A program made the translations under genes and the position numbers. 64,000 nucleotides of DNA from Plantactinospora endophytica (lineage in GTDB: Bacteria; Actinomycetota; Actinomycetes; Mycobacteriales; Micromonosporaceae), in the NCBI RefSeq assembly GCF_016862915.1, contig NZ_BONW01000017.1, positions 124,001 through 188,000 of the forward strand, in the 5' to 3' direction. Below the pieces are notes generated by a model. It had not been told where the DNA came from and did not search any database. It saw only the letters and a program-made list of their open reading frames with translations. Below, one piece after another: positions 1,431-63,853 of this stretch; position 1 is the stretch's first letter, and each line of letters opens with the position of its first letter.

Positions 1431-2669
1431 GTGCCTACCCCACCGCCCGCAGACGTACTCGAACCGCACGACGACACCGTCGACGAGATCGAGTCCCGCG
1501 CGGAACTGGATCTCCACCTCCGGACCGGCAGCCTGGCCGGGCTGACCGTGCAGGGGCTTCGGCTGGATCTCGATCCGGTGCCGGACCTGACCACGGTCGA
1601 CCTGACCGACACCCTGTTCGCCGGGTGCCGGTTCGTCTCCCGCGAGGTGGAGGCGGAGCTGGTCCGGCGCGGCGCGACCGTGGTGCCGGCGTTCGGGGAG
1701 CTGCCGTACCCGACGCACCCGTCCCGGCTCTATGCCGCCGACGAACTGGCCCACGGGTTCGAGACCGACGGCTTCGCCGGGATGTACGACACCGTGGTCT
1801 ACGAGCACTTCCGGCGGCACGGTGGTGCGCTGCCGGAACTCCGGGAGGCGCTGGCCCAGCGGCTGCACGACCACGCCGTCGACAACGCGCTCGCCGACGC
1901 CACCCGGTCCTGGCTGACCCGGCACGGGCCGGCCTCGGTGGTCGGGGTGATGGGCGGGCACGCGGTACCGCGCGGCACTTCGGCGTACCGGTTGGCCGCG
2001 ACGCTGGGCTGGGAACTGGCCCGGGCCGGTCGGCTGGTGGTGACCGGTGGCGGGCCGGGGGTGATGGAAGCGGCCAACCTGGGCGCCTACCTCGCCGAGC
2101 GGTCGGCGGACGAACTCACCTCCGCGATCGACCTGCTGGCCGCCGCGCCGGACTTCACCGACCACGATCCCTACACCGCAGCGGCGCTCCAGGTCCGGGC
2201 CCGGTTCGCACCGGCGGTACCGCAGCCCCGCACCGGGAACGGGAACGGGAACGGGCGCCGGGACGCCGACCCGGACCGGTGGGCCCGGCAGGGCGGGCTC
2301 GCCATCCCCACCTGGCTGTACGGGCACGAGCCGGCGAACCTCTTCGCCGGCCGGATCGCCAAGTATTTCTCCAACGCGATCCGCGAGGACACCATCCTCC
2401 GACTGGCCCGGGGCGGGATCGTCTTCGCCGCCGGCCGGGCCGGCACGGTGCAGGAGGTGTTCCAGGCGGCCACCAAGACGTTCTACGGCACCGACGGCGC
2501 CAGCGGTCCGTACGTCTTCCTGGACCGCGCCTTCTGGACCCAGACGCTGCCGATCGAGGCCCTGTTGCGCCCGCTGCTGGCTCTCGCTCCCGCCGGTGAC
2601 CTGGCCCGTTCGGTGCACGTCACCGACGACGTGCACGAGGCCGTCCGGCTGCTCACCACCGCGCCGTAG
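1431..2669 (+). CDS. LOG-family (lysine decarboxylase-like) Rossmann-fold protein
   Basis: About 412 residues from the GTG at 1431; an in-frame upstream ATG at 1344 would lie inside the leader hairpin and is less likely. The LOG/TIGR00730 nucleotide-binding signature is visible: GVMGGHAVPRG, then GGGPGVMEAANLGAYL, then GRAGTVQEVFQAATKTFY in place of the classical PGGxGTxxE. LOG proteins cleave nucleoside 5'-monophosphates (cytokinin riboside monophosphate in the best-studied cases) or belong to the PpnN-like group. This one is longer than the ~190-residue small LOGs and carries a ~100-residue N-terminal region plus a middle linker, like actinobacterial long LOG-like proteins. Substrate unknown. 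It converges on fba. Confidence 0.75.
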   Translation: MPTPPPADVLEPHDDTVDEIESRAELDLHLRTGSLAGLTVQGLRLDLDPVPDLTTVDLTDTLFAGCRFVSREVEAELVRRGATVVPAFGELPYPTHPSRLYAADELAHGFETDGFAGMYDTVVYEHFRRHGGALPELREALAQRLHDHAVDNALADATRSWLTRHGPASVVGVMGGHAVPRGTSAYRLAATLGWELARAGRLVVTGGGPGVMEAANLGAYLAERSADELTSAIDLLAAAPDFTDHDPYTAAALQVRARFAPAVPQPRTGNGNGNGRRDADPDRWARQGGLAIPTWLYGHEPANLFAGRIAKYFSNAIREDTILRLARGGIVFAAGRAGTVQEVFQAATKTFYGTDGASGPYVFLDRAFWTQTLPIEALLRPLLALAPAGDLARSVHVTDDVHEAVRLLTTAP

Positions 2670-2690
2670 CCAGCGGCGACCGCCCGGGAC

Positions 2691-2741
2691 GGGTGGGCCG
2701 GCCGGTACCGGAAGTTCCGGCACCGGTCGCGCGGCCCACCC
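2691..2741. terminator. Bidirectional terminator-like hairpin between LOG and fba
   Basis: GGGTGGGCCG (2691-2700) pairs with CGGCCCACCC (2732-2741). Inside, CCGGT (2702-2706) pairs with ACCGG (2722-2726), with a further short stem within. It sits between two convergent stop codons and can serve both strands. There is no clear T-tract, as is usual in high-GC actinobacteria. Confidence 0.6.
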
Positions 2742-2764
2742 ACCGCCGGGTGTTCGCCGGGGTA

Positions 2765-3793
2765 CTACTTGGCCAGCGTCGTACCGGTCGAGCGCAGGTG
2801 CTCGCACGCCTCGGCGACCCGCTGCGCCATCCCCGCCTCGGCCGCCTTGCCCCAGACCCGAGGGTCGTACATCTTCTTGTTGCCGACCTCGCCGTCGACC
2901 TTCAGCACGCCGTCGTAGTTGCGGAACATGTGGTCCGCGACCGGCCGGGTGAAGGTGTACTGCGTGTCGGTGTCGATGTTCATCTTCACCACGCCGTAGT
3001 CGAGCGCCTCGCGGATCTCGGAGAGCAGCGAGCCGGAGCCGCCGTGGAACACCAGGCTGAGCGGCTTGTCGCCCTTGTTGTACTTGGCGCCGACCGCCTG
3101 CTGGATCTCGTTGAGGATCTCCGGGCGGAGCTTGACGTTGCCGGGCTTGTAGACGCCGTGCACGTTGCCGAAGGTCAGCGCCGCCATGTAGCGGCCCTTC
3201 TCGCCGAGGCCGAGCGCGTCGACCATGGCGATGCCGTCCTCGACGGTGGTGTAGAGCTTCTCGTTGATCGCGTTCTCGACGCCGTCCTCCTCGCCGCCGA
3301 CCACGCCGACCTCGATCTCCAGCACGATGTGCCCGGCCGCCGCCTCGTCGAGGAGCTGCGCGGCGATTTCGAGGTTCTCCCCGACCGGTACGGCGGAGCC
3401 GTCCCACATGTGCGACTGGAACAGCGGCTCCTCGCCGCGCGCCACCCGCTCCTTGGAGATCGCCATCAGCGGCCGGACGAACTTGTCGAGCTTGTCCTTC
3501 GGGCAGTGGTCGGTGTGCAGCGCGATGTTGACCGGGTAGTTCTTGGCCACCTCGCGGGCGTACGCGGCGAACGCCGCCGCGCCGGTCACCATGTCCTTGA
3601 CGGTCGGGCCGGAGAGGTACTCGGCGCCACCGGTCGAGACCTGGACGATGCCGTCGCTCTCCGCGTCGGCGAAACCGCGCAGCGCCGCGTTCAGGGTCTG
3701 CGAGGACGTCACGTTGATCGCGGGGTACGCATACCGGCCCGCCTTGGCGCGGTCAAGCATCTCCGCGTAGACCTCGGGGGAAGCGATGGGCAT
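2765..3793 (-). CDS. fba: Class II fructose-bisphosphate aldolase
   Basis: A 342-residue Zn-dependent class II aldolase that reversibly cleaves fructose-1,6-bisphosphate to DHAP and glyceraldehyde-3-phosphate in cytosolic glycolysis/gluconeogenesis. Class II signatures are visible: NIALHTDHCPK (Zn and catalytic region), a Glu-rich EIEVGVVGGEEDG segment, GNVHGVYKPG, VFHGGSGS and KMNIDTDTQYTF. Length matches actinobacterial Fba (~340). The ATG is preceded by AAGGAGCG at good spacing. About 220 bp separate it from the upstream membrane-protein gene on the same strand, so it probably has its own promoter. Confidence 0.95.
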   Translation of the reverse strand: MPIASPEVYAEMLDRAKAGRYAYPAINVTSSQTLNAALRGFADAESDGIVQVSTGGAEYLSGPTVKDMVTGAAAFAAYAREVAKNYPVNIALHTDHCPKDKLDKFVRPLMAISKERVARGEEPLFQSHMWDGSAVPVGENLEIAAQLLDEAAAGHIVLEIEVGVVGGEEDGVENAINEKLYTTVEDGIAMVDALGLGEKGRYMAALTFGNVHGVYKPGNVKLRPEILNEIQQAVGAKYNKGDKPLSLVFHGGSGSLLSEIREALDYGVVKMNIDTDTQYTFTRPVADHMFRNYDGVLKVDGEVGNKKMYDPRVWGKAAEAGMAQRVAEACEHLRSTGTTLAK

Positions 3794-4015
3794 GTGAAAC
3801 GCTCCTTACTAACCGCTCTCGGCCTGCTCGGCCGCTGTCTGAATGAACCTTCTTCAACCCCCTGCCGGTCCGTCGTGGCCGCAGGTGATGTCGAGGCGCG
3901 GGTGCCGCGCGGTTCAGGTTGAAAAGGGTTCGGTGGGTACGCCCGGACCGCGCTGTCCTCCGCCCCGAAGTATCCCGCAGGCCGCTCGCACCACTTCACC
4001 CCACCCGGCCCCGGC

Positions 4016-4402
4016 TCAGCGTTCGGACCGGCCCGGCCAGACGACACCGATCAGCCAGCTCACCACCGCCATCACGATCGCACCGTAGAAGGCCGGCCAG
4101 AAGCCGTCGATCTGGAAGGGCAGGTCGAACACGTGCGCGATCCAGTCCGTGAGCAGGAACAGCAGCGCGTTCACGACCAGCGCGAACAGTCCCAGGGTCA
4201 GGACGTAGAAGACGCAGCCGACGACGCGGATGATCGGCTTGAGTACCGCGTTGACCACCCCGAAGATGAACGCGACCACGAGTACGGTCAGCGCGTCCTC
4301 GCCGGTGGTGCGGCCGGTCAGCTCGATGCCGGGCACCACCAGGCTGGTGACCCACAGCGCAAGTGCGCTGATCACCAGCCTGATCAGGAAGCCCACCGCC
4401 AC
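4016..4402 (-). CDS. Phage holin family / DUF360-type small membrane protein
   Basis: A 128-residue, very hydrophobic protein with four predicted membrane helices: residues 4-24, about 36-56, 61-85 and 103-122. The pattern matches the Phage_holin_4_2 (YvlD-like) family, including GVVNAVLKPIIRV and LTLGLFALVVNALLF. Despite the name these are widespread chromosomal membrane proteins with no proven holin role. The start is a GTG at 4400-4402; a nearby ATG is out of frame. It lies upstream of fba on the same strand but 220 bp away. Confidence 0.85.
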   Translation of the reverse strand: MAVGFLIRLVISALALWVTSLVVPGIELTGRTTGEDALTVLVVAFIFGVVNAVLKPIIRVVGCVFYVLTLGLFALVVNALLFLLTDWIAHVFDLPFQIDGFWPAFYGAIVMAVVSWLIGVVWPGRSER

Positions 4403-4530
4403 ATCGTGGCACGTGACCCGTTCCGGGACGGGCGGTTTAGCCCGGTCCGGGACCGGGCACCGTGCTCCGGGTACGGGCCGTCCGATCAGCCCGTACGGTG
4501 GAGAAAGACGCCGACCGGCAGGAGTGGGAC

Positions 4531-4746
4531 ATGGGCCAGCCCGACGAGGACTTCGCTCCCGGCGACCACCTCGCCCCGGACGAGCGCGATCCGGAGGCGC
4601 CGGCCGAGGACGCCGTGGAGCAGGCGACCGTCGCGGACCCGAACACCGAGGACCAGCCGGAGGTGCAGCGCGGGCTGGAAGTGGACGAGTGGGACGCCCT
4701 CGAACAGGCCCGGGTGGTCGGTCCGCAGGACGACGACTACCGCTGA
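4531..4746 (+). CDS. Small acidic protein of unknown function
   Basis: A 71-residue protein starting at the ATG at 4531, chosen because GGAG lies 7 nt upstream; an earlier TTG-type start has no ribosome binding site. It is strongly acidic and rich in Asp, Glu, Pro and Ala, with few hydrophobic residues and no cysteine, so it is probably disordered. No family is recognised. The 3' end (DDDYR and stop) lies in a ~46 bp direct repeat. It converges on the glycosyltransferase gene. Confidence 0.6.
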   Translation: MGQPDEDFAPGDHLAPDERDPEAPAEDAVEQATVADPNTEDQPEVQRGLEVDEWDALEQARVVGPQDDDYR

Positions 4747-4822
4747 GCCGACGGTCGCGTTACCGCCGAGCCCCCACGACGACTGCCGGCGAGTCGACGG
4801 TCGCGTTACCGCCGGGCCGCCG
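4731..4822. repeat. Two ~46 bp direct repeats bridging two convergent stop codons
   Basis: Copy 1 (4731-4776) and copy 2 (4777-4822) share CGACGACT and a 20-base core beginning CGACGGTCGCGTTACC. Copy 1 contains the stop of the small acidic gene and copy 2 the stop of the glycosyltransferase gene. Confidence 0.65.
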
Positions 4823-6437
4823 CCGGGAGCGGTAGCGCGTCCAGAGTGTCCGCGAGGGTCGGCGGCGGGCCGGTGATCTCCGCCGATTCGCCCGTTCCGG
4901 CGAGCAGCCGGCGGTAGACCCCGGTGAGGATCTCGGCCTGGGCCGTCCAGGTCCAACCGGTCAGCAGCCCCGGCCGGTCGTACGCGGCCCGGTAGCGTTC
5001 CCGGTCCGCGAGTACCGCCCGGACGGCGCGGGCGTAGTCGGCCACGTCGCGGGCCCGGAACACCTCGCCCTGCCCGGTCGACCGGACCGTACCGGCCATC
5101 GTCTTCACGTCGCTGACCACCAGCGGCAGCCGGGCGTGCGCGTACTCGAAGAACTTGGTGATCAGCGCGATCTCGTGGTTGGGCCAGTGGTGGATCGGAA
5201 TCGCCCCGGCGTCGGCGCCGGCCAGGAACGGCACCACCTGCCAGTGCGAGACGTACGGCAGCACGTGCACCCGGTCGGCGACTCCGATCTTTCGCGCGTG
5301 CGCGACGAGCTTGCGCACGTACTGGAGGTCGGGGTTCACCACCAGCGCGGTGTGTACGCCGGGCAGCTCGGGCAACGCGTCGACCATGGTCCGCAGTCCC
5401 CGCTGCTCGGCGGCGCTGCCGCTGTAGACCACCAGCGGCACGTCGAGGCCGAGCCCGCAGCGCTGCCGCAGGTCGGGGACCGAGTCGTCCGACCCGTCCG
5501 GCGCGTGTTCGACGGCGGGCGCGTTCAGCACCACCGCCGGCTGTTCGGCGAGCCGGTGCTCGGCCCGGAGCAGGTCCGCCAGCGCGTCGGAGACGGTGAC
5601 CACGGCGTCGGCGTACGGGGCGTACTCGCGCTCGTGCGCCCGCATGGCGGGCAGCCAGCGGATGTTCGGTTGCCACGGCCGGATGCCCGGCAGGAACTCG
5701 TGGGCGTCCCAGACCAGCTTGACCTGTCGACCGGCCGCCTGTGCCCTGATCTTGGCACGAGCGCCGACGCCCAACATCCGGAAGTCGTTGGCGTGGATCA
5801 GGTCCGGCGCCAGTTCGTCGACCACCGGCCCGTACGCCAGTTCGTAGTCCCACAGCCCCGGTTCGAGCCGGCGCCAGGCCCCGTCCCCGAGGACCTTCTG
5901 CCAGAAGAACGTGTACCCGCGATCCCACGGGTTGCGGTAGCGGCGGGCGTACATGCCCCGGTTGTGCATCTTCGTCCGGACCCAGACCCAACGCCCGGCC
6001 AGGTCGGCCACGCCCAGCCGGGCCCGGTGCCAGAGTTCCGCCGCCCGGTTCCGGCGGCCGGCCCGGGCGGCCAGTTCGAGCTGGGCGCCCCGGAACCGCA
6101 GGTCCGCCCGCCAGGCGGCGACCTGCTGGGCCCGGTATTCGGCGATCCCGTTCGGCGGGTAGCCGAGCGGCCAGCGCAGCCAGGCCCGCTTGTACTGGTG
6201 GCGCTTGCGGAACAGCGGCTCGGGCATCGGCAGCAACCGGACCTGCGCCCCGCCGAGCTGCCAGCTCTGCGCGACCCCGGTCGGCGACCGGCCGAGCAGG
6301 ACGACCTCCCAGCCGGCGTCCGCCGCCGAGCGGGCCTGCTTCTGCACCCGGGAGTCCCCGTTGACGCCGTTGTCGACAAGCATGACGATCCGGCCCGGCA
6401 CGCGGCGGCCCGCCGCTCCGGCATCGTCAGGCGTCAT
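4806..6437 (-). CDS. Glycosyltransferase, GT4-like (GT-B fold)
   Basis: About 543 residues from the ATG at 6435-6437, preceded by GGAGACGAG. The N-terminal half begins RIVMLVDNGVNGDSRVQKQAR, a typical GT-B donor/acceptor start, and includes DLIHANDF and KLVWDAHEFLPG. The C-terminal half has PLVVYSGSAAEQRGLRTMVDAL, VHVLPYVSHWQVVPFLAGADAG and the Glu-containing HEIALITKFFEYAHARLPLVVSD, as in GT4 retaining transferases. It probably acts at the cytoplasmic face in polysaccharide or cell-envelope glycan synthesis; the sugar donor cannot be told. No other glycan genes adjoin it. Confidence 0.85.
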   Translation of the reverse strand: MTPDDAGAAGRRVPGRIVMLVDNGVNGDSRVQKQARSAADAGWEVVLLGRSPTGVAQSWQLGGAQVRLLPMPEPLFRKRHQYKRAWLRWPLGYPPNGIAEYRAQQVAAWRADLRFRGAQLELAARAGRRNRAAELWHRARLGVADLAGRWVWVRTKMHNRGMYARRYRNPWDRGYTFFWQKVLGDGAWRRLEPGLWDYELAYGPVVDELAPDLIHANDFRMLGVGARAKIRAQAAGRQVKLVWDAHEFLPGIRPWQPNIRWLPAMRAHEREYAPYADAVVTVSDALADLLRAEHRLAEQPAVVLNAPAVEHAPDGSDDSVPDLRQRCGLGLDVPLVVYSGSAAEQRGLRTMVDALPELPGVHTALVVNPDLQYVRKLVAHARKIGVADRVHVLPYVSHWQVVPFLAGADAGAIPIHHWPNHEIALITKFFEYAHARLPLVVSDVKTMAGTVRSTGQGEVFRARDVADYARAVRAVLADRERYRAAYDRPGLLTGWTWTAQAEILTGVYRRLLAGTGESAEITGPPPTLADTLDALPLPAAARR

Positions 6438-25314: not shown

Positions 25315-25953
25315 CTACTCGCACCGCATCCAGTTGAAGTGGTACGTCGTGCTGACGCTGCCGTCGACCGAGTCCATCATCAGGAAGCTGGTGCTCCTCG
25401 GGTCCGACGTACCGCGACTCACCCGCAGCTCCGTGTTGATGTTGAACAGTCGGACCACACCGCAGGGGGCGTAGACCAGCTCGGCCACGTCGGTGACGTC
25501 GGTCGTCTGCCAGTTGTCACTGGTCGGGCCGGCGATGTTGTGCGTCCGCATCGCCGTCGGCGACTGGCCCTGGATGTAGTAGCTCGCCCGCTGCATGCCG
25601 CTGGCACCGCGTTCGAGATGGGCGAAGCCGCGGTAGTCGGCCTGCCCGATCGCGTACGTGAAGCCGCCCGGGACGTTCACCTGGAGGACCAGTTGGCAGT
25701 TCTTCCGGAAGTCGGTCGGCGCGGTGCCGGCGCCGGCCTGGGCGAGGTAGTCGCTGTAGGTCACCGTGAACGCCGTGTTGTCCGGCGCCGTGGCGACCGC
25801 CGCCGTGCCGGCCCGGCAGCCGGACCCGTTGACCGTGACTACCTCGATGGTGATGCGCTCGGCCGGCGGATTGGTCGTCGGGACGGGGTCGGCGAGTACC
25901 GGCAGGCCCATCAACGACGCCGCCAGACTGCCGAGAACCAACGTGTGCAACAT
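25315..25953 (-). CDS. Secreted DUF4360 protein, paralog 1
   Basis: 212 residues from the ATG at 25951-25953, preceded by AAGGGAG. An N-terminal signal peptide (MLHTLVLGSLAASLMGLPVLA) leads into a DUF4360 domain: ITIEVVTVNGSGC, DNTAFTVTYSDYLAQAGAG, FRKNCQLVLQVNVPGGFTYAIGQADYRGFAHLERG, YAPCGVVRLFNINTELRV and a terminal HFNWMRCE. Four mature-region Cys (GSGC, KNC, APC, WMRC) are shared by all three paralogs and probably form two disulfides. DUF4360 proteins occur in actinobacteria and fungi and have no known function. This copy is followed by its own terminator hairpin. Confidence 0.85.
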   Translation of the reverse strand: MLHTLVLGSLAASLMGLPVLADPVPTTNPPAERITIEVVTVNGSGCRAGTAAVATAPDNTAFTVTYSDYLAQAGAGTAPTDFRKNCQLVLQVNVPGGFTYAIGQADYRGFAHLERGASGMQRASYYIQGQSPTAMRTHNIAGPTSDNWQTTDVTDVAELVYAPCGVVRLFNINTELRVSRGTSDPRSTSFLMMDSVDGSVSTTYHFNWMRCE

Positions 25954-25977
25954 TTCCGGGCTCCCTTCGGTCACCGT

Positions 25978-26001
25978 CGCGCGGGCCGTTCTGCCCGCGC
26001 G
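25978..26001 (-). other. Hairpin in the leader of DUF4360 paralog 1
   Basis: CGCGCGGGC (25978-25986) pairs with GCCCGCGCG (25993-26001), 9 bp with a 6 nt loop. It lies about 25 nt before the start codon, between paralogs 2 and 1, and may affect translation or mRNA stability. Confidence 0.5.
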
Positions 26002-26082
26002 ATGTATCACCTTTCATCCATCGATCGGATGGCCTCTTTCACCGGGCGCCCGCGCCCGCCAGTGCCGGGCGGGCGGGGCCCG

Positions 26083-26131
26083 CCTCCGGGCCGGGATGTC
26101 GTAACGGCAGCTCGGCATCCCGGCCCGGAGG
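26083..26131 (-). terminator. Perfect 16 bp hairpin after DUF4360 paralog 2
   Basis: The arms 26083-26098 and 26116-26131 are exact reverse complements (CCTCCGGGCCGGGATG) with a 17 nt loop. The hairpin starts 7 nt past the stop. There is no T-tract, so it may be a GC-type terminator or an mRNA-stabilising end. Confidence 0.7.
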
Positions 26132-26138
26132 AGACGTG

Positions 26139-26786
26139 TCAGGACTCGGGGCACTTCTTCCAGGCGAAGTGGTAGATGGTGTTGATGCCGCCATCCGTCG
26201 AGTCCATCGCCATGAAACTCGTGGTGGTCGCCGGGTTGGACGTCCCGACGTTCACCCGCAGTTCGGTGTTGATGTTGAGGAACCGCATCTCGCCGCAGGG
26301 GGCGTAGCTCACCGACGTGAGTTCCTCGGTGTCGGTCGTCTGCCAGCTGTCGTCGAGCGGGCCTCTGAACGAGTGGCTCTTGTACGTCGTCGGCGAGGAG
26401 CCCTGGAAGTAGTAGTTCGCCCGCGACTGGGCCGTCGCGCCGTTGGCCAGATACGCGTAGCCGCGGTAGTCGGCCTGGAGAATCGCGTAGGTGAAGCCCT
26501 CCGGAACGTGCACCTGGAGGGCCAACTGGCAGTTTTTCCGGGAGTCGGTCGGCCGCGCCCCCACGCCGACCTGGGCGAGATAGTCGCTGTACGTCACCGT
26601 GAAGGCCGTGTTGTCGGGGGCGACCGCGACGGCCGCGGTCCCGGCCGGGCAACCGGAGCCGTTGATGGTGATGACTTCGATGAGAATCTTCTCGTCCGGA
26701 GGCTCCACGGGCGGATCCGTCGGGATGACAATCGCGCCGCCAAGCAACGAGGCAACGAGACTGCCAATGGCCAGCACACTGATCAT
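26139..26786 (-). CDS. Secreted DUF4360 protein, paralog 2
   Basis: 215 residues; the ATG follows GGGAGGG. The N-terminus (MISVLAIGSLVASLLGGAIVIPT) is hydrophobic but lacks basic residues, so export is likely but signal cleavage is unclear. The DUF4360 core is intact: ILIEVITINGSGCPAGTAAV, DNTAFTVTYSDYLAQVGVG, SRKNCQLALQVHVPEGFTYAILQADYRGYAYL, YAPCGEMRFLNINTELRV and FAWKKCPES. It closely resembles paralog 1. A promoter-like TTGACG-N18-TAGGGT lies upstream, so it can be transcribed independently. Confidence 0.85.
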   Translation of the reverse strand: MISVLAIGSLVASLLGGAIVIPTDPPVEPPDEKILIEVITINGSGCPAGTAAVAVAPDNTAFTVTYSDYLAQVGVGARPTDSRKNCQLALQVHVPEGFTYAILQADYRGYAYLANGATAQSRANYYFQGSSPTTYKSHSFRGPLDDSWQTTDTEELTSVSYAPCGEMRFLNINTELRVNVGTSNPATTTSFMAMDSTDGGINTIYHFAWKKCPES

Positions 26787-26830
26787 GGGTTCCCTCCCGA
26801 TCGTGGCGATAATGTCGCGCGCGCACGCAC

Positions 26831-26860
26831 ACCCTAGCTCTATTTATTGATGTCCGTCAA
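26831..26860 (-). promoter_or_regulatory. Promoter candidate for DUF4360 paralog 2
   Basis: Reading on the minus strand, TTGACG (26855-26860) is followed after 18 nt by TAGGGT (26831-26836), about 45 nt before the ATG, in an unusually AT-rich patch. The same TTGACGG start occurs before paralog 3. Confidence 0.55.
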
Positions 26861-26923
26861 TGTCTTATAGACGAATCCGCAACAGAGCGAAACACGGTAC
26901 GACGACCCGAAGCGAAAAACGCA

Positions 26924-26984
26924 AGGGCCCCCCGAGTCGGCACGATGGACATTAACCATTCCATCGGCCACCCCGGGGGGCCCT
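26924..26984 (-). terminator. Rho-independent terminator after DUF4360 paralog 3
   Basis: AGGGCCCCCCG (26924-26934) pairs with CGGGGGGCCCT (26974-26984); an inner CGATGG/CCATCG stem sits at 26943-26948 and 26961-26966. On the minus strand the stem is followed by TGCGTTTTTCGC, a real T-tract, making this the most canonical terminator in the window. Confidence 0.85.
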
Positions 26985-27037
26985 AATTCGCGTCAGCCCC
27001 GCACTCTGCCGTCAGGGGACGCGGCACGGCGGCGCCG

Positions 27038-27655
27038 TCAGCACTCTTTCCAGCTCAGGTGGTAGATGCTGCGCACACTGCCCCGGCTCGAATCCATCGC
27101 CATGAAGCTCGTGCCGCTCTCGGCATCACCGGCGTCCAACCGCAGCTCGGTGTTGACGTTGAGGTTGCGTACCTGGCCGCAGGGCGCGTAGACCAGGGTC
27201 GCGGCGCGGTCGGACGTACGCCAGCCGCCGCTGTACGGCCCGGTGAACTCGTGGCTCGTCTGTGCGGTCGGCGAGGTACCCATGAAGTAGTAGTGCGAGT
27301 ACTGCGCACCGGTGGCCCCGCGCTGGAGGTACGCGAAGCCCTGTAGGTCCACCTGGGCCACCGCGAAGGTGAGCCCCTGGGGAATCTGGACCTTCAGGCT
27401 GAGCTGGCAGTTCTTTCTGAACTCGGTCGGCTTCGCCCCGGCACCGGCCAGCACGAAATAGTCGCTGTAGCTAACCGTGAAGGCCGTGTTGTCGGCTGCG
27501 GTGCTCACCTCGGCCGTCCCGGCCGGGCAGCCTGAGCCATTGACGGTCTCCACGCTGATGGTGATCCGCTCGGCCGGGATCACCAAGGGCTCGGTAGCCA
27601 CCGTCGAGGCAAACAATGCCGCGAGTACGCCGCCGACAGCCATCACGTTGGGCAT
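27038..27655 (-). CDS. Secreted DUF4360 protein, paralog 3
   Basis: 205 residues from the ATG at 27653-27655, with GGAAGGA upstream. The signal peptide is MPNVMAVGGVLAALFASTVA. The mature part keeps the family blocks: ITISVETVNGSGCPAGTAEV, DNTAFTVSYSDYFVLAGAG, FRKNCQLSLKVQIPQGLTFAVAQVDLQGFAYLQRG, YAPCGQVRNLNVNTELRL and YHLSWKEC. It is the most divergent of the three. It has its own promoter candidate and terminator, so the cluster looks like three separate transcription units rather than an operon. Confidence 0.85.
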   Translation of the reverse strand: MPNVMAVGGVLAALFASTVATEPLVIPAERITISVETVNGSGCPAGTAEVSTAADNTAFTVSYSDYFVLAGAGAKPTEFRKNCQLSLKVQIPQGLTFAVAQVDLQGFAYLQRGATGAQYSHYYFMGTSPTAQTSHEFTGPYSGGWRTSDRAATLVYAPCGQVRNLNVNTELRLDAGDAESGTSFMAMDSSRGSVRSIYHLSWKEC

Positions 27656-53832: not shown

Positions 53833-54099
53833 TCAGAGCGGGCGGCCGGGGCGGCGTACCTCGTGGTACTCCTCGACGACCTGCTCCTCCCGGGCCGGTA
53901 CCCGGGGGGCCACCACCGGCGTGACGACGGTACGGCGACGGTTGCGCCAGAGGTAGGTGGTCATGATGATCCCGACCACGCCGGCGAGCATCAGTACCCA
54001 GCCGACGGCGTTCAGGTTGAGCCAGCCCGTCTCGACGTCCACCGCGAACGCGAGGATCGCGCCGAGCGCAATGAGAAAGATGCTTCCACCGATGCCCAC
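53833..54099 (-). CDS. DUF6458 small membrane protein, copy 1
   Basis: 88 residues. MGIGGSIFLIALGAILAFAVDVETGWLNLNAVGWVLMLAGVVGIIMTTYLWRNRRR is the DUF6458 layout: a Gly-rich first helix, a short loop with LNLN, a second helix and a basic stop-transfer. A charged tail with EEQVVEEYHEVRRPGRP follows. Function unknown. A second copy lies 1.1 kb away across the SixA gene. The 54100-54360 spacer to the SixA gene is divergent and holds the promoters of both. Confidence 0.88.
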   Translation of the reverse strand: MGIGGSIFLIALGAILAFAVDVETGWLNLNAVGWVLMLAGVVGIIMTTYLWRNRRRTVVTPVVAPRVPAREEQVVEEYHEVRRPGRPL

Positions 54100-55163: not shown

Positions 55164-55433
55164 TCAGGTGGGTGGCGCGCTCGGCGGCGGTGGATCCGGC
55201 GGCGGTGGCATCATCGCCGTCGGATGCGACAGCCGGTTCTCCTCGACGATCAGGGTCCGGGCCCGCTTCTTGCGGTCCTGCCAGTACCACATGGTGGTGG
55301 CCAGCACGCCGAGCCCGGCCAGGATGAAGACCCAGCCGACCGTACGAAGGTCGAGCCACCAGACGTTCGCCCTGACCGCGAACGTCAGGATGGCTCCCAG
55401 GGTGATGAGGAAAATTCCTGTACCGATGCCCAT
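55164..55433 (-). CDS. DUF6458 small membrane protein, copy 2
   Basis: 89 residues: MGIGTGIFLITLGAILTFAVRANVWWLDLRTVGWVFILAGLGVLATTMWYWQDRKKR, two helices with the DLRTVGW loop, then a basic stretch and a Pro-rich end (MMPPPPDPPPPSAPPT). The helices closely match copy 1, while the tails differ completely. It follows the fadE-like gene on the same strand, with a terminator between. Confidence 0.88.
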   Translation of the reverse strand: MGIGTGIFLITLGAILTFAVRANVWWLDLRTVGWVFILAGLGVLATTMWYWQDRKKRARTLIVEENRLSHPTAMMPPPPDPPPPSAPPT

Positions 55434-60553: not shown

Positions 60554-60664
60554 CCGACCGGGCGCAGTCGTGCCCTGTCGGCCAGGTGGCCGGGTGTAGC
60601 CGTGCCGGAACTCTCAGGTGGCCGAGCGTAGGCGTGCCGAGACTCTCAGGTGGCCGGCGGCGGC
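60551..60664. repeat. Three to four 32 bp tandem repeats filling a convergent gene junction
   Basis: Units begin at 60551 (degenerate), 60583, 60615 and 60647 (partial); the middle two share CAGGTGGCCG.G.GTAG.CGTGCCG.ACTCT. The array starts exactly at the stop of the phosphoribosyltransferase gene and includes the stop of the FGE-like gene (60646-60648). Confidence 0.8.
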
Positions 60665-61782
60665 TGCTCCGTACGGCACAGCCGGAAGCCGATGTTCGGC
60701 GCGAGGTGGTCGCCCCAGTCGTCGTCCCGCCAACTCGTCGAGGCGCGGGACATCCGGAACGAGACGCTTACCGCGCCGGCACAGTCGGCCCAGGAACCGC
60801 CCCGGAGCACCCGCTGCTCCCCGTCGGCCGGGCCGGTCGGACTCTCCACCGGGCTTTCGAGGTAGTACTCGGCGTCGTACCAGTCGGCCGTCCACTCCCA
60901 GACCGAGCCGGCCATCCCGTACAGGCCGTAGCCGTTGGGCGGAAGCCGGCGCATCGGCAGGATCGACAACTCGTCGAACCGGTCGAAGTCGCAGTGCTCT
61001 CGCGTCGGCGGCTCGTCCCCCCACGGATAGCGGCGGCCGACCAGCCCGCCCCGGGCCGCCCGCTCCCACTCCGCCTCGGTCGGCAACCGGTAACGGACCG
61101 TCTCCGTGGAGATCGCCGCGCAGAGTTCCTCGGCCTCCTGCGCGGCGACGCAGACCATCGGCTTGTCGTCGTACCCCCACGGCCGGCTCGGATCAGCGCG
61201 GGGCGGTACGCCGAACACGGACGCCGGGTCGACCGGCTCGTCGCCCCGGCTCAGCGTCATCCGGGGATGGTGTGCGTGCCAGTCGACCGCCCGGGTGGTC
61301 TCGTCCTCGCAGTACTGGAGTCGGATCCGGTTCGCCGAGTCGAGCACGAACCGCCCGCGCCGGCCGGCCGGGTCGGGATCGTCGTCCGGCTCCGGCTGCC
61401 CGTCCGGCGGCGGTCGCCACCCCATCAACCGGCAGTACGTCGACCAGCTCACCGCCGTCTCGGACAGCCAGTAGCCGTCCAGCCGTACCCGGTGCACCGG
61501 CCACTCGTCCGGGTCGGCCGTCTCCGAGCCCATCAGGAAGGTACCGGCCGGGACGTACCGGAAGGTCAGTCCGTGCTCCTCGACGGCCAACCGGTCCAAC
61601 AGGTCCCGCCGCGCGCCGGCCAGCTCGGCGTCGCCCGGGTCGAGCGCGTACGCCCGGTCGTAAACCGCCGCCGCGGCCCGCAGCTCGCCGGCCCGGACCA
61701 GTTTCCGGGCCAGTCGGCGCAGCCGGACCGGCCCACCGGTCGCCGCCCGCTCGGCGCGCAGCCACTCCTCGACCGCCGTCAC
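60646..61782 (-). CDS. SUMF1/EgtB/PvdO-family (FGE-sulfatase-like) protein
   Basis: 378 residues from the GTG at 61780-61782, 5 nt after the radical SAM stop. The first ~85 residues are helical, TPR-like (VEEWLRAERAATGGPVRLRRLARKLVRAGELRAAAAVYDRAYALDPGDAEL). The FGE-sulfatase domain follows: LTFRYVPAGTFLMGSETADPDEWPVHRVRLDGYWLSETAVSWSTYCRLM, VRYRLPTEAEWERAARGG, PNGYGLYGMAGSVWEWTADWY and RVLRGGSWADCAGAVSVSFR. Cys334 matches the first catalytic Cys of formylglycine-generating enzyme, but the second position (339) is Ser. Classical Cu-FGE chemistry is therefore doubtful. It may be an oxygenase of another kind, working with the radical SAM enzyme. No sulfatase gene is near. Confidence 0.82.
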   Translation of the reverse strand: MTAVEEWLRAERAATGGPVRLRRLARKLVRAGELRAAAAVYDRAYALDPGDAELAGARRDLLDRLAVEEHGLTFRYVPAGTFLMGSETADPDEWPVHRVRLDGYWLSETAVSWSTYCRLMGWRPPPDGQPEPDDDPDPAGRRGRFVLDSANRIRLQYCEDETTRAVDWHAHHPRMTLSRGDEPVDPASVFGVPPRADPSRPWGYDDKPMVCVAAQEAEELCAAISTETVRYRLPTEAEWERAARGGLVGRRYPWGDEPPTREHCDFDRFDELSILPMRRLPPNGYGLYGMAGSVWEWTADWYDAEYYLESPVESPTGPADGEQRVLRGGSWADCAGAVSVSFRMSRASTSWRDDDWGDHLAPNIGFRLCRTEQPPPAT

Positions 61783-61787
61783 CCCGG

Positions 61788-63215
61788 TCAGCTCCCGCAG
61801 GACGGGCGGCCCCGCCCCGTCCCCGCCGACACGTCGAGCACCACCAGCGGATTGCGTACCGGATCCGGCGTGAGCCGTTCCAGCGCGACCTGGTCGGTGA
61901 TCCACGGGTCCGGCGCGTTCACCGAGCCGTTCAGCACCAGCGCCCGCGCGCGGCAGCCGCCGCCGAAGGTGGCGGTCCCGCCCCGGCTGCTGGCCGGCTC
62001 GGTGTGCGGCAGCGCCCGGATCGACCGGAATCCGGTGCTGTGTCGCCAGATGTCGGCCAGCGACCGGTCCCGGACGTTCGCGGCGACGAACCGGGGGCCG
62101 AGGAAGCTGCACGGGTTGACGTCGCCCGCGACCGAGACCGAGCAGACCAGGTTGCCGGCGCCGCAGCCGTAGTTCTGCTGCACCACCGACTGGGTATCCC
62201 GCCGGGTGTGCGGGCCGAACGGGTCGATCTGGCGCAGCTCCATCCGGTCGTCGTCCAGCCGGGCCAGGGTGTTCAGCGCGGTGTTGTACTCGGCGAAGGT
62301 CGGCATCAGCTCCAGGTGCCGCTGTGCCACCCCGACCGGGTAGAGCGGCCGGAACACCGCCGTGTCCGCGCCCACCTCGCGGGCGAGCCGGGCACACGCC
62401 TCGACCTCCGCGACGTTCGAGCGCATGATCGTGAAAGCCAGCGTGAACCGGGCGTACCGGCGGAGCACCGCCAACCGGTCCAGCACCCGGTCGAAGGTGC
62501 CGGCGCCGCGTACCCGGTCGTTGCTCTCGGCCGTGGCGCCCTCCAGGCTGACGTTGAGCCAGACCAGTTCCCGCCGGCCGAACTCCCGGGCGATCTCCTC
62601 GGTGACCAGCAGCCCGTTGGTGGTGACACAGGGGGCGAGACCATGCGCGGTGGCGAGGTCGATGATCTGGAACAGGTCCTTGCGGAGCAGCGGTTCACCG
62701 CCGGTGAGGCCGAGCCGGAAACTGCCGAGGCTCGCCATCTCGGCGAAGAGCCGATCGATCTCGGCCAGGCTCAGCCGCCGCTCCCGACGCGGCAGGTCCC
62801 CCGCGAAGCAGTGCGTACAGCTCAGGTTGCAGGCGGAGACGACCTCCAGGTGTACGGCGAGCGGCCCGGCCAGGTGGTCGGCCGGCGGTTCCGGACCGTC
62901 GAGCACGACACCGGCGAACCGGTGCCCCACCGTGAAGAAGCCCAGCTCGTAGAAGTGCTCGTAGAACCGGAGCAGCCGCTCGCGGTGCCCGTCGTCGGCC
63001 ACCTCCGACAGCACCTCCCCGACCGGCCGGTCGACGAGCCGGCGCAGCAGTGCGGTGGCCTCGGCGTCGAACGGCAGGTACCGCGAGGTGCGGCGGTCGA
63101 AGACCAGGCTGCCGAAGTGCTGCGGAACCAGCACCAGCGGAGGCGGGGGCGGCGACGGGGGCGGCATCGTGGCCGGCGTCGGGGACGGGGACTGGGCCGC
63201 CGCCGCGCCGGTCAC
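61788..63215 (-). CDS. Radical SAM enzyme with N-terminal PqqD/RRE-like domain and partial SPASM/twitch region
   Basis: 475 residues from the GTG at 63213-63215, overlapping the upstream stop (GTGA). After a Pro-rich lead, residues ~31-95 look like a PqqD-type RiPP recognition element (FGSLVFDRRTSRYLPFDAEATALLRRLVDRPVGEV...LLRFYEHFYELGFF). The radical SAM core has CNLSCTHC (C129, C133, C136) and GLTGGEPLLRKDLFQII. The C-terminal region has YGCGAGNLVCSVSVAGDVNPC and a final GGGC, but not the usual CxxCx5C in between, so the auxiliary [4Fe-4S] set is reduced. It reads as a maturase of peptides or proteins, probably recognising a leader through the RRE. Substrate unknown. Confidence 0.85.
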   Translation of the reverse strand: MTGAAAAQSPSPTPATMPPPSPPPPPLVLVPQHFGSLVFDRRTSRYLPFDAEATALLRRLVDRPVGEVLSEVADDGHRERLLRFYEHFYELGFFTVGHRFAGVVLDGPEPPADHLAGPLAVHLEVVSACNLSCTHCFAGDLPRRERRLSLAEIDRLFAEMASLGSFRLGLTGGEPLLRKDLFQIIDLATAHGLAPCVTTNGLLVTEEIAREFGRRELVWLNVSLEGATAESNDRVRGAGTFDRVLDRLAVLRRYARFTLAFTIMRSNVAEVEACARLAREVGADTAVFRPLYPVGVAQRHLELMPTFAEYNTALNTLARLDDDRMELRQIDPFGPHTRRDTQSVVQQNYGCGAGNLVCSVSVAGDVNPCSFLGPRFVAANVRDRSLADIWRHSTGFRSIRALPHTEPASSRGGTATFGGGCRARALVLNGSVNAPDPWITDQVALERLTPDPVRNPLVVLDVSAGTGRGRPSCGS

Positions 63216-63853
63216 CGGGTACCGCCGGGTGGGGTGAGCCGGAAGCCGGCGCGTACCCAGATCCGGTCGGCGGCCACCGGCACGCCCAACCCCACCGCAC
63301 CCAGCTCGCCGAGCCGCCCGACCTGGTAGCCGGCCTGGTCCCAGCCGGTACCCTCGGGCGGCCGGTGCGCGGTCCGGGGCTCCATCGGCGCCCAGTCGCC
63401 GTCGTCGAAACCCGGGCGGGTCCAGCGGTCGTCGGCCGGCTCGACCGGCGACCACCGCCAGCCGCCGTCCACGGTGGACAGGATCGAGATCTCGACCGCC
63501 TGCTCCGGGGTGGAGTCGACGTGCGGGTCGTGGCCCGGGCGGTGCACGGCGGCGAACATCAGCGCGATGAACGCCGGGTCGACGTCCGCGACGGTGAAGG
63601 CGAGGACGTGCTCGCCGTACGGGACGACCGGGCGGGCCGAGGGCGGCTCCACGCCGTCGAGCAGGAACCGGCACTCCCCGGCAGCGTAGAGCTGGACCCG
63701 CAGCGGCACCCCGGCCAGCGGGTCCCGCCAGCGGAGCACCACGCCGCCACAACCGGCCGGCACCTCGCAGTGCCCGTGCTCCTCCAGGATGAACAGCGGC
63801 GACTCCTTGGCGTACCTCGACACCGAGTTGAGTTTCAGTTCCCGGTCCGGCAT
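63212..63853 (-). CDS. Unknown protein heading the radical SAM/FGE-like cassette
   Basis: 213 residues from the ATG at 63851-63853, with GAGAGGTGG upstream; a longer frame exists without a good start. No signal peptide. The first ~40 residues (LKLNSVSRYAKESPLFI then EEHGHCEVPAGCGGVVLRW) hold Cys29 and Cys35 and a Gly-rich turn; a third Cys lies in AAGECRFLLDG. The C-terminal half has WTRPGFDDGDWAPMEPR and IWVRAGFRL, the pattern of jelly-roll domains at the N-termini of glycosidases. It could be the substrate, a scaffold or a carrier of the modification system. I do not recognise a named family. Confidence 0.65.
   Translation of the reverse strand: MPDRELKLNSVSRYAKESPLFILEEHGHCEVPAGCGGVVLRWRDPLAGVPLRVQLYAAGECRFLLDGVEPPSARPVVPYGEHVLAFTVADVDPAFIALMFAAVHRPGHDPHVDSTPEQAVEISILSTVDGGWRWSPVEPADDRWTRPGFDDGDWAPMEPRTAHRPPEGTGWDQAGYQVGRLGELGAVGLGVPVAADRIWVRAGFRLTPPGGTR

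Follow-up and report, generated by a model that had tools for sequence, protein, structure and literature searches.

QhpD, the intraprotein thioether-forming radical S-adenosylmethionine (SAM) enzyme of quinohemoprotein amine dehydrogenase, acts on a protein and not on a released peptide. In the formylglycine-generating enzyme (SUMF1/FGE), the two Cys found after RGGS ligate Cu(I). SkfB combines an RRE, a recognition domain for ribosomally synthesized and post-translationally modified peptides (RiPPs), with radical SAM and Twitch domains, as described in passages of PMC6231123. Some VMAP-ternary conflict systems carry a radical SAM/SPASM enzyme, an FxSxx-COOH peptide and a metallopeptidase as accessories (passages of PMC7159879), and FGS domains found with STAND NTPases and EAD7 have been proposed as invader-binding modules (passages of PMC8195603). 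Here we present a three-gene cassette from a 64,000-nucleotide (nt) stretch of Plantactinospora endophytica (contig NZ_BONW01000017.1, positions 124,001 to 188,000; hereafter, the window) that encodes an orphan protein (P1), a radical SAM enzyme (P2) and an FGE-fold protein (P3). With a probability of about 60%, we favor that this conserved three-gene module modifies a pair of Cys in the N-terminal part of P1 through RRE-guided radical SAM chemistry.

The three genes lie on the minus strand, with a 4-nt overlap between P1 and P2 and a 5-nt gap between P2 and P3, exactly as described in the original prediction, which had been made from the letters of the window; plus-strand genes stand on either side. 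We scanned 84,980 species genomes for an exact match to EEHGHCE or CGGVVLRW and obtained 98 matching stretches, 29 of them encoding a P1 relative. Counting the window, 25 of 30 loci show the order P1-P2-P3 on one strand, and no gap between these genes exceeds 73 nt according to the chosen starts (genes were called with a home-made high-GC caller, or with a simpler one for nine contigs, and start sites are approximate). The trio is present in Actinomycetota, Planctomycetota, Myxococcota, Acidobacteriota and Eisenbacteria. Regarding the other loci, L030 presents the order P1-P3-P2, L026 and L034 have P1-P2 with no adjacent P3, and L028 and L042 are cut by contig ends. Since L035 and L042 belong to the same metagenome-assembled genome and their P1 pieces overlap, they very probably represent one gene split between contigs, so that the 30 loci hold 29 genes. 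L035 also carries a second P1-like and P3-like pair (2618-5147), giving P1-P2-P3-P1'-P3', with two pairs beside a single P2. Genome searches added six regions with P1-P2-P3 (L067-L072) and one with P1-P3-P2 whose P2 is cut by the contig (L073). Pairwise distance correlations of the three proteins ranged from 0.74 to 0.79 (25 loci) and were reached by 0 of 500 label permutations, although shared inheritance could suffice to produce them. The adjacency kept across phyla is more than chance. The trio had been expected to recur in conserved order across actinobacteria; it does so, extends beyond them, and is not adjacent in this genome only.

P1 itself is rare. Its closest named relative is that of Plantactinospora mayteni (81% identity), and it was found in two of seven genomes of the genus and in 2 of 61 relatives. 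Among 396 genomes of the phylum, three matched a four-row P1 profile, with a full-length match only in the window's own, and P2 was found at E<=1e-60 in 4 of 150 of its family. Using the 28-row P1 alignment, and with the seed genome included in each count, matches were obtained in 2/294 in the phylum of a Planctomycetales genome, 10/195 in that of Myxococcus (one of them weak and divergent), 1/251 in that of the Chloroflexi genome, 5/250 in the family of Thermomonospora and 1/297 in that of Streptomyces sparsogenes. As the results shown include scores for only 4 to 16 first-look candidates per genome, absence in these group searches is not firm. Three loci (L014, L019 and L022) match the genomes of the entries G003, G103 and G084. 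L038, recorded as Comamonas sp. KCTC 72670, closely resembles Myxococcus in its P2 and neighbors, which may reflect a wrong label or a contaminated contig. Within the open-access literature, to which our search was confined, we recognized no description of the trio, and the literal motif CEVPAGCGG gave no match. We also discarded a mobile element: P1 had no match in plasmids or viral contigs and P2 had none in plasmids at E<=1e-60, the phage collection lying outside the search.

The most conserved part of P1 is its N-terminal segment, which is modeled with low confidence and ends in CEVPAGCGG. In the 28 aligned sequences (without L020, L042 and the second L035 copy), the mean majority identity is 0.91 for residues 21-43, 0.50 for residues 44-105 and 0.48 for residues 126-213. 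The mean AlphaFold confidence per 10-residue block is 45, 58, 62 and 60 over residues 1-40, 81 over residues 41-50, and mostly above 90 from there on. Both Cys29 and Cys35 are present in every aligned sequence, and the reading frame is full-length in 27, the 28th (L035) being cut only by the contig start. Beyond the scan patterns (residues 8-23, 31-34 and 43), the average majority identity is still 0.74. Two profile-found copies lacking either scan pattern (L059 and L061) retain CEVPAGCGG, and the divergent P1 of L073, from the Myxococcus phylum, retains SHCQGAPVGCGG. The gene for this last protein (L073:1332-2453, minus strand) also encodes an N-terminal extension of about 220 amino acids (aa), and it is adjoined by P3 and the cut P2. 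As for the rest of P1, the structure model is beta-rich and the C-terminus gave a 29-position profile match to the rhamnosidase chain 3w5m (E 3e-5), both of which support the jelly-roll-like C-terminus that had been proposed. We rejected P1 as a member of a known family, as it gave no match in NCBIfam, none in PADLOC at E<=0.001 (the same as P3) and a single one in Pfam (DUF6237, E 0.25), which was disregarded. We consider P1 the likely substrate.

In the Chloroflexi contig L034, the N-terminal motif of P1 is repeated in a free 39-aa open reading frame (ORF), MPDLNLNSLSRFSKKSSTMILEVYSHCEVPAGCGGDEDE, at L034:3875-3994 on the plus strand, around 590 nt upstream of the full P1 gene and with a Shine-Dalgarno-like stretch. 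The free ORF and the P1 N-terminus differ at 14 of 105 nt, including 9 third positions, which over 35 codons amounts to six synonymous and four non-synonymous changes. These four amino-acid changes compare with a mean of 9.8 under uniform random substitution (fraction with four or fewer, 0.0002). This ORF retains both motif Cys while lacking the remainder of P1. The 63 sequences scanned, many of which overlap, contain no other free copy. A candidate short precursor next to the maturase is seen as the P1 N-terminal segment and, in one genome only, as a free peptide. The original prediction had found no short Cys-rich peptide gene nearby; none is indeed seen beside the window trio, but the Cys-bearing peptide is apparently the N-terminus of P1 itself.

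Regarding P2, Pfam gave matches to Radical_SAM (4.8e-23) and SPASM (1.6e-6). In the 28 aligned sequences (without L028 and L042), the CxxxCxxC motif and Cys351, Cys369 and Cys421 are invariant, and Cys358 is present in 21; P2 thereby carries both the CxxxCxxC and the SPASM/Twitch Cys of RRE-containing radical SAM maturases, and the latter Cys would fit one auxiliary cluster. The N-terminal part of the model has strands at residues 27-32, 35-40 and 45-49 and helices at residues 51-62, 65-70 and 75-90. When 21 of the 28 P2 N-termini were compared by hhalign with 18 PqqD-family domains (the best 18 of 30 listed loci, from related genomes), 58 columns were aligned with a score of 25.8, above all 200 column shuffles (maximum 17.8) and above the reversed profile (8.7). 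A PDB sequence search with the P2 N-terminal profile found no RRE protein. With the whole P2 model, the best Foldseek matches in the PDB were two RRE-bearing RiPP maturases, SkfB (5.3e-18; 383 columns including gaps, with a 383-residue target) and SuiB; as the aligned range is not shown, it is likely, not proven, that the SkfB match takes in the RRE. A PqqD/RRE-like domain had been proposed here, with profile detection as its check: it is sustained by predicted topology, by profile-profile comparison and by fold, but it fails with the Pfam model. An RRE at the P2 N-terminus is hence supported but not proven, and P2 probably acts as a radical SAM enzyme guided by it.

P3 has the FGE fold with a helical N-terminus, in agreement with the original prediction, its TPR signal being weak and under the cut-off. 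Across 26 aligned members (without the second L035 copy), Cys334 is present in 22, position 339 is never a Cys, and accordingly the two aligned Cys are never found together; in L030 and L037 there is a Cys one position ahead of 339. Since the pair of Cys after RGGS that characterizes the copper-dependent FGE is missing in 26 of 26, we filed P3 as FGE-fold and not as FGE, and on the same grounds we rejected FGE-type Cys oxidation by this protein. In addition, two loci have P1-P2 with no P3 beside them. P3 seems more likely to be a binding or accessory subunit than a second oxidase. The original prediction had envisaged an RRE-guided two-enzyme maturation of a peptide or of P1: RRE guidance of the radical SAM enzyme, with P1 as its substrate, is likely, but the FGE-type oxidation is not upheld.

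Features of the cassette in the window (positions count from the first letter of the window; residues are those of the encoded protein)
Feature	Position	Strand	Description and evidence
P1	63212..63853	-	Orphan protein, 213 aa; conserved N-terminal segment and beta-rich C-terminal domain; proposed substrate/carrier
P1 residues 8-43	63725..63832	-	Leader/core-like segment; conservation, low model confidence, free 39-aa version in L034
P1 residues 28-37, HCEVPAGCGG	63743..63772	-	Proposed modification site (Cys29, Cys35); both Cys in 28/28
P2	61788..63215	-	RRE-radical SAM-SPASM/Twitch enzyme, 475 aa, GTG start
P2 residues 27-100	62916..63137	-	RRE/PqqD-like domain, beta-beta-beta-alpha-alpha-alpha; predicted topology and hhalign
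P2 residues 129-136, CNLSCTHC	62808..62831	-	Radical SAM motif CxxxCxxC; all three Cys in 28/28
P2 residues 351-421	61953..62165	-	Reduced SPASM/Twitch-like part; Pfam SPASM 1.6e-6, Cys counts
P3	60646..61782	-	TPR-like N-terminus and FGE/SUMF1-fold (FGS) protein, 378 aa, GTG start
P3 residues 21-55	61618..61722	-	Weak TPR-like helices; Pfam TPR_14 E 0.0012, under curated cut-off
P3 residues 77-369	60676..61554	-	FGE-sulfatase domain; Pfam PF03781, 2.5e-46
P3 residues 327-334, RGGSWADC	60781..60804	-	Cys334 aligned with first FGE Cys, Ser339 with second (alignment to 6muj)

Spanning the 3' end of P3 and the gap that follows it (window 60558-60657), a 36-nt unit occurs in three imperfect direct copies with a spacing of 32 nt and 69-75% identity to the first, which may be due to chance in GC-rich DNA. 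Elsewhere in the window, three tandem ORFs of 205-215 aa (25315-27655, minus strand) are alike at the start, with a signal-peptide-like part and then a ITIEVVTVNGSG-like stretch, and are apparently tandem paralogues. Two similar short membrane-like ORFs of 88 and 89 aa (53833-54099 and 55164-55433, minus strand) lie on either side of a plus-strand gene. Several neighbors were left out of the system because we saw no recurrence across clades: in the window, phosphoribosyltransferase-, phosphatase- and two-component-like genes, named by eye with no family search; and, in other loci, a BTAD-NB-ARC-TPR gene (Virgisporangium; scanned in L008 only), Ser/Thr kinase-TPR genes (L023 and L024), a P450 (L025) and a SUKH gene (L015).

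We propose that the cassette acts as a module for protein maturation, in which P1 would combine a precursor segment of the RiPP type with a beta-rich domain. P2 would dock through its RRE onto the leader-like stretch LxLNSLSRYxKxS, and its radical SAM/Twitch core would modify the adjoining HCEVPAGCGG, where Cys29 and/or Cys35 would most likely be joined via a thioether, by analogy with SkfB-type sactisynthases. The modified segment would probably remain attached to P1, since neither a peptidase nor a transporter was seen recurring with the trio across clades; an exception could be the EAD-linked trypsin or caspase of four loci, which could cut P1 there.

Several points weigh against this proposal. 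The putative core is near-invariant, which is unusual for secreted RiPPs, and the conservation of the P1 N-terminus could reflect protein-protein docking instead of modification. Part of that conservation is also selection, given the exact patterns demanded by the genome scan. The second P1-like copy of L035 keeps only the second motif Cys, with one P2 common to both copies. Foldseek gave 0 PDB matches at E<=0.001 for the P1 model (low-confidence tail included), so P1 is called beta-rich or jelly-roll-like only from predicted secondary structure and the rhamnosidase match. As for the RRE-like part of P2, its hhalign probability is low (56.5) and the Pfam PqqD model recognized none of 21 members. 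Finally, trypsin or caspase peptidases do adjoin the trio in the four EAD loci.

In three of these loci, from Streptomyces (L018, L020 and L021), genes for EAD1-trypsin and EAD1-EAD7 proteins are followed by the trio and then by a long gene. The latter has EAD7 and NTPase matches in L018 and L020 (NACHT/AAA, below Pfam cut-offs), and in L021 it is only clustered by blast with those EAD7-NTPase genes. The fourth, from Nonomuraea (L027), has caspase-EAD7 and EAD7-AAA genes on the two sides of the trio. In all four, trio and EAD genes are co-directional and operon-like, and these operons resemble candidate cell-suicide defense systems. Hence, one could argue that the trio is the sensor/effector module of a STAND-type immunity system, in which P3, with its C-type-lectin-like FGS fold, and a modified P1 would recognize an invader, and the EAD7-NTPase and EAD-linked proteases would kill the cell. 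This would be in keeping with the invader binding proposed for FGS domains beside STAND NTPases and EAD7 (passages of PMC8195603), and with the radical SAM/SPASM-modified peptides that accompany some VMAP-ternary systems (passages of PMC7159879). Besides, the P2 tree rejects the four loci as one clade (approximately unbiased test, p 0.0008; the group was set by neighborhood before the tree, the test was run once a first tree had been inspected, and L027 has one of the long branches). However, an EAD effector and an EAD NTPase share the operon in only 4 of 30 loci, the NACHT/AAA matches are below cut-offs, and P1 and P3 have no PADLOC match. The window is not one of these loci: Pfam gave no EAD match in P1, P2 or P3, and its genome gave no EAD7 match, although the controls of that search were silent too. 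With this result, and with plus-strand genes flanking the window trio, we regard the EAD link as real but local, suggesting a role in immunity in those operons and not in this genome; as an account of the cassette, STAND-type immunity is possible but on the unlikely side.

Could P2 instead make a free product or cofactor, like PQQ or mycofactocin, with the beta-rich part of P1 as a handle that is later removed? In NCBIfam, P2 comes closest to the mycofactocin maturase (171.5 bits, under the cut-off of 265), a free version of the peptide exists, and the trypsin and caspase genes beside the trio could speak for it as well. Against this, the 28 aligned P1 are kept at full length wherever the contig allows, the free peptide occurs in a single genome, and no peptidase was found outside the EAD loci among the 29 neighbors scanned with Pfam, which are far from every neighbor, making this a distinctly unlikely reading. 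An unmodified P1, whose N-terminus would be a docking or metal-binding tail assembling a P1-P2-P3 complex that acts on another molecule, would show equal invariance at the conserved interface; moreover, the only PADLOC matches of P2 are viperins (7e-22), which also appear among the lower Foldseek matches. This is nonetheless unlikely, since P2 has RRE-like and Twitch-like parts, its top fold matches are peptide maturases, and the 39-aa peptide has its Cys pair although the rest of P1 is absent from it. Oxidation of the P1 Cys to formylglycine by P3, with P2 acting in a second step, as the original prediction read the cassette, would agree with the fold of P3 and with the alignment of Cys334 to the first FGE Cys; it is highly improbable in view of the second position, for which the Cys of L037, one residue earlier, is the nearest case, and of L026 and L034, where P3 was not found beside P1-P2.

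If the Cys-pair modification that we favor is real, RRE-guided radical SAM chemistry would reach beyond secreted peptides and cofactors and act, in several phyla, on the conserved tail of a protein. The modified tail may be kept in the cell, and the near-invariant target would make the reaction easy to test. Radical SAM chemistry would also gain a possible place in EAD cell-death operons besides the FxSxx systems, and P3 would add to the families that have the FGE fold without being formylglycine-generating enzymes. A more tentative idea, to which we give a low chance, is that of a protein-bound RiPP: a radical-SAM-modified CxxxxxC loop on a beta-rich carrier that, with a lectin-like FGS partner, would form a primed sensor or trigger, placed in two separate lineages within EAD7-NTPase-caspase/trypsin suicide operons. 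If true, it would provide bacterial innate immunity with a chemical sensor installed post-translationally.

In order to contextualize these results, we compared the cassette with the systems outlined above. P3 is alike in fold to SUMF1/FGE and differs in its aligned Cys pair, missing throughout. FGS-STAND NTPase systems (passages of PMC8195603) resemble the EAD loci in their FGS fold, EAD7, STAND-like NTPase and caspase or trypsin; they differ in that the cassette encodes its FGS protein separately, next to the genes of P1 and a radical SAM enzyme, and in that 26 of 30 cassette loci have no recognized EAD partner. The term 'radical SAM' occurs 0 times in the main text of that paper. In the VMAP-ternary FxSxx systems, as would be the case in the EAD loci, a peptide modified by a radical SAM enzyme accompanies EAD-bearing conflict systems; the VMAP-ternary ones are defined by a metallopeptidase together with a small protein that diverges rapidly (passages of PMC7159879). 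The cassette, in contrast, has a near-invariant motif and an FGS protein, P1 does not end in FxSxx, and no zincin or other metallopeptidase was found among the Pfam-scanned neighbors. With QhpD it would have in common that a protein is acted on, and no amine dehydrogenase subunit was recognized among those same neighbors. The closest parallel is offered by SuiB and by SkfB-type sactisynthases (6EFN), which differ in that the substrate here would be the N-terminus of a protein of around 200 aa with a near-invariant core, that the cassette includes P3 as a partner, and that Pfam PqqD does not recognize the RRE-like part of P2. P2 has nevertheless the same three-domain plan and its top PDB fold matches among them, and in both cases a Cys-bearing substrate segment adjoins a leader-like stretch. 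By this analogy the cassette would work like a sactisynthase, and it looks like an undescribed relative of the systems that mature peptide antibiotics.

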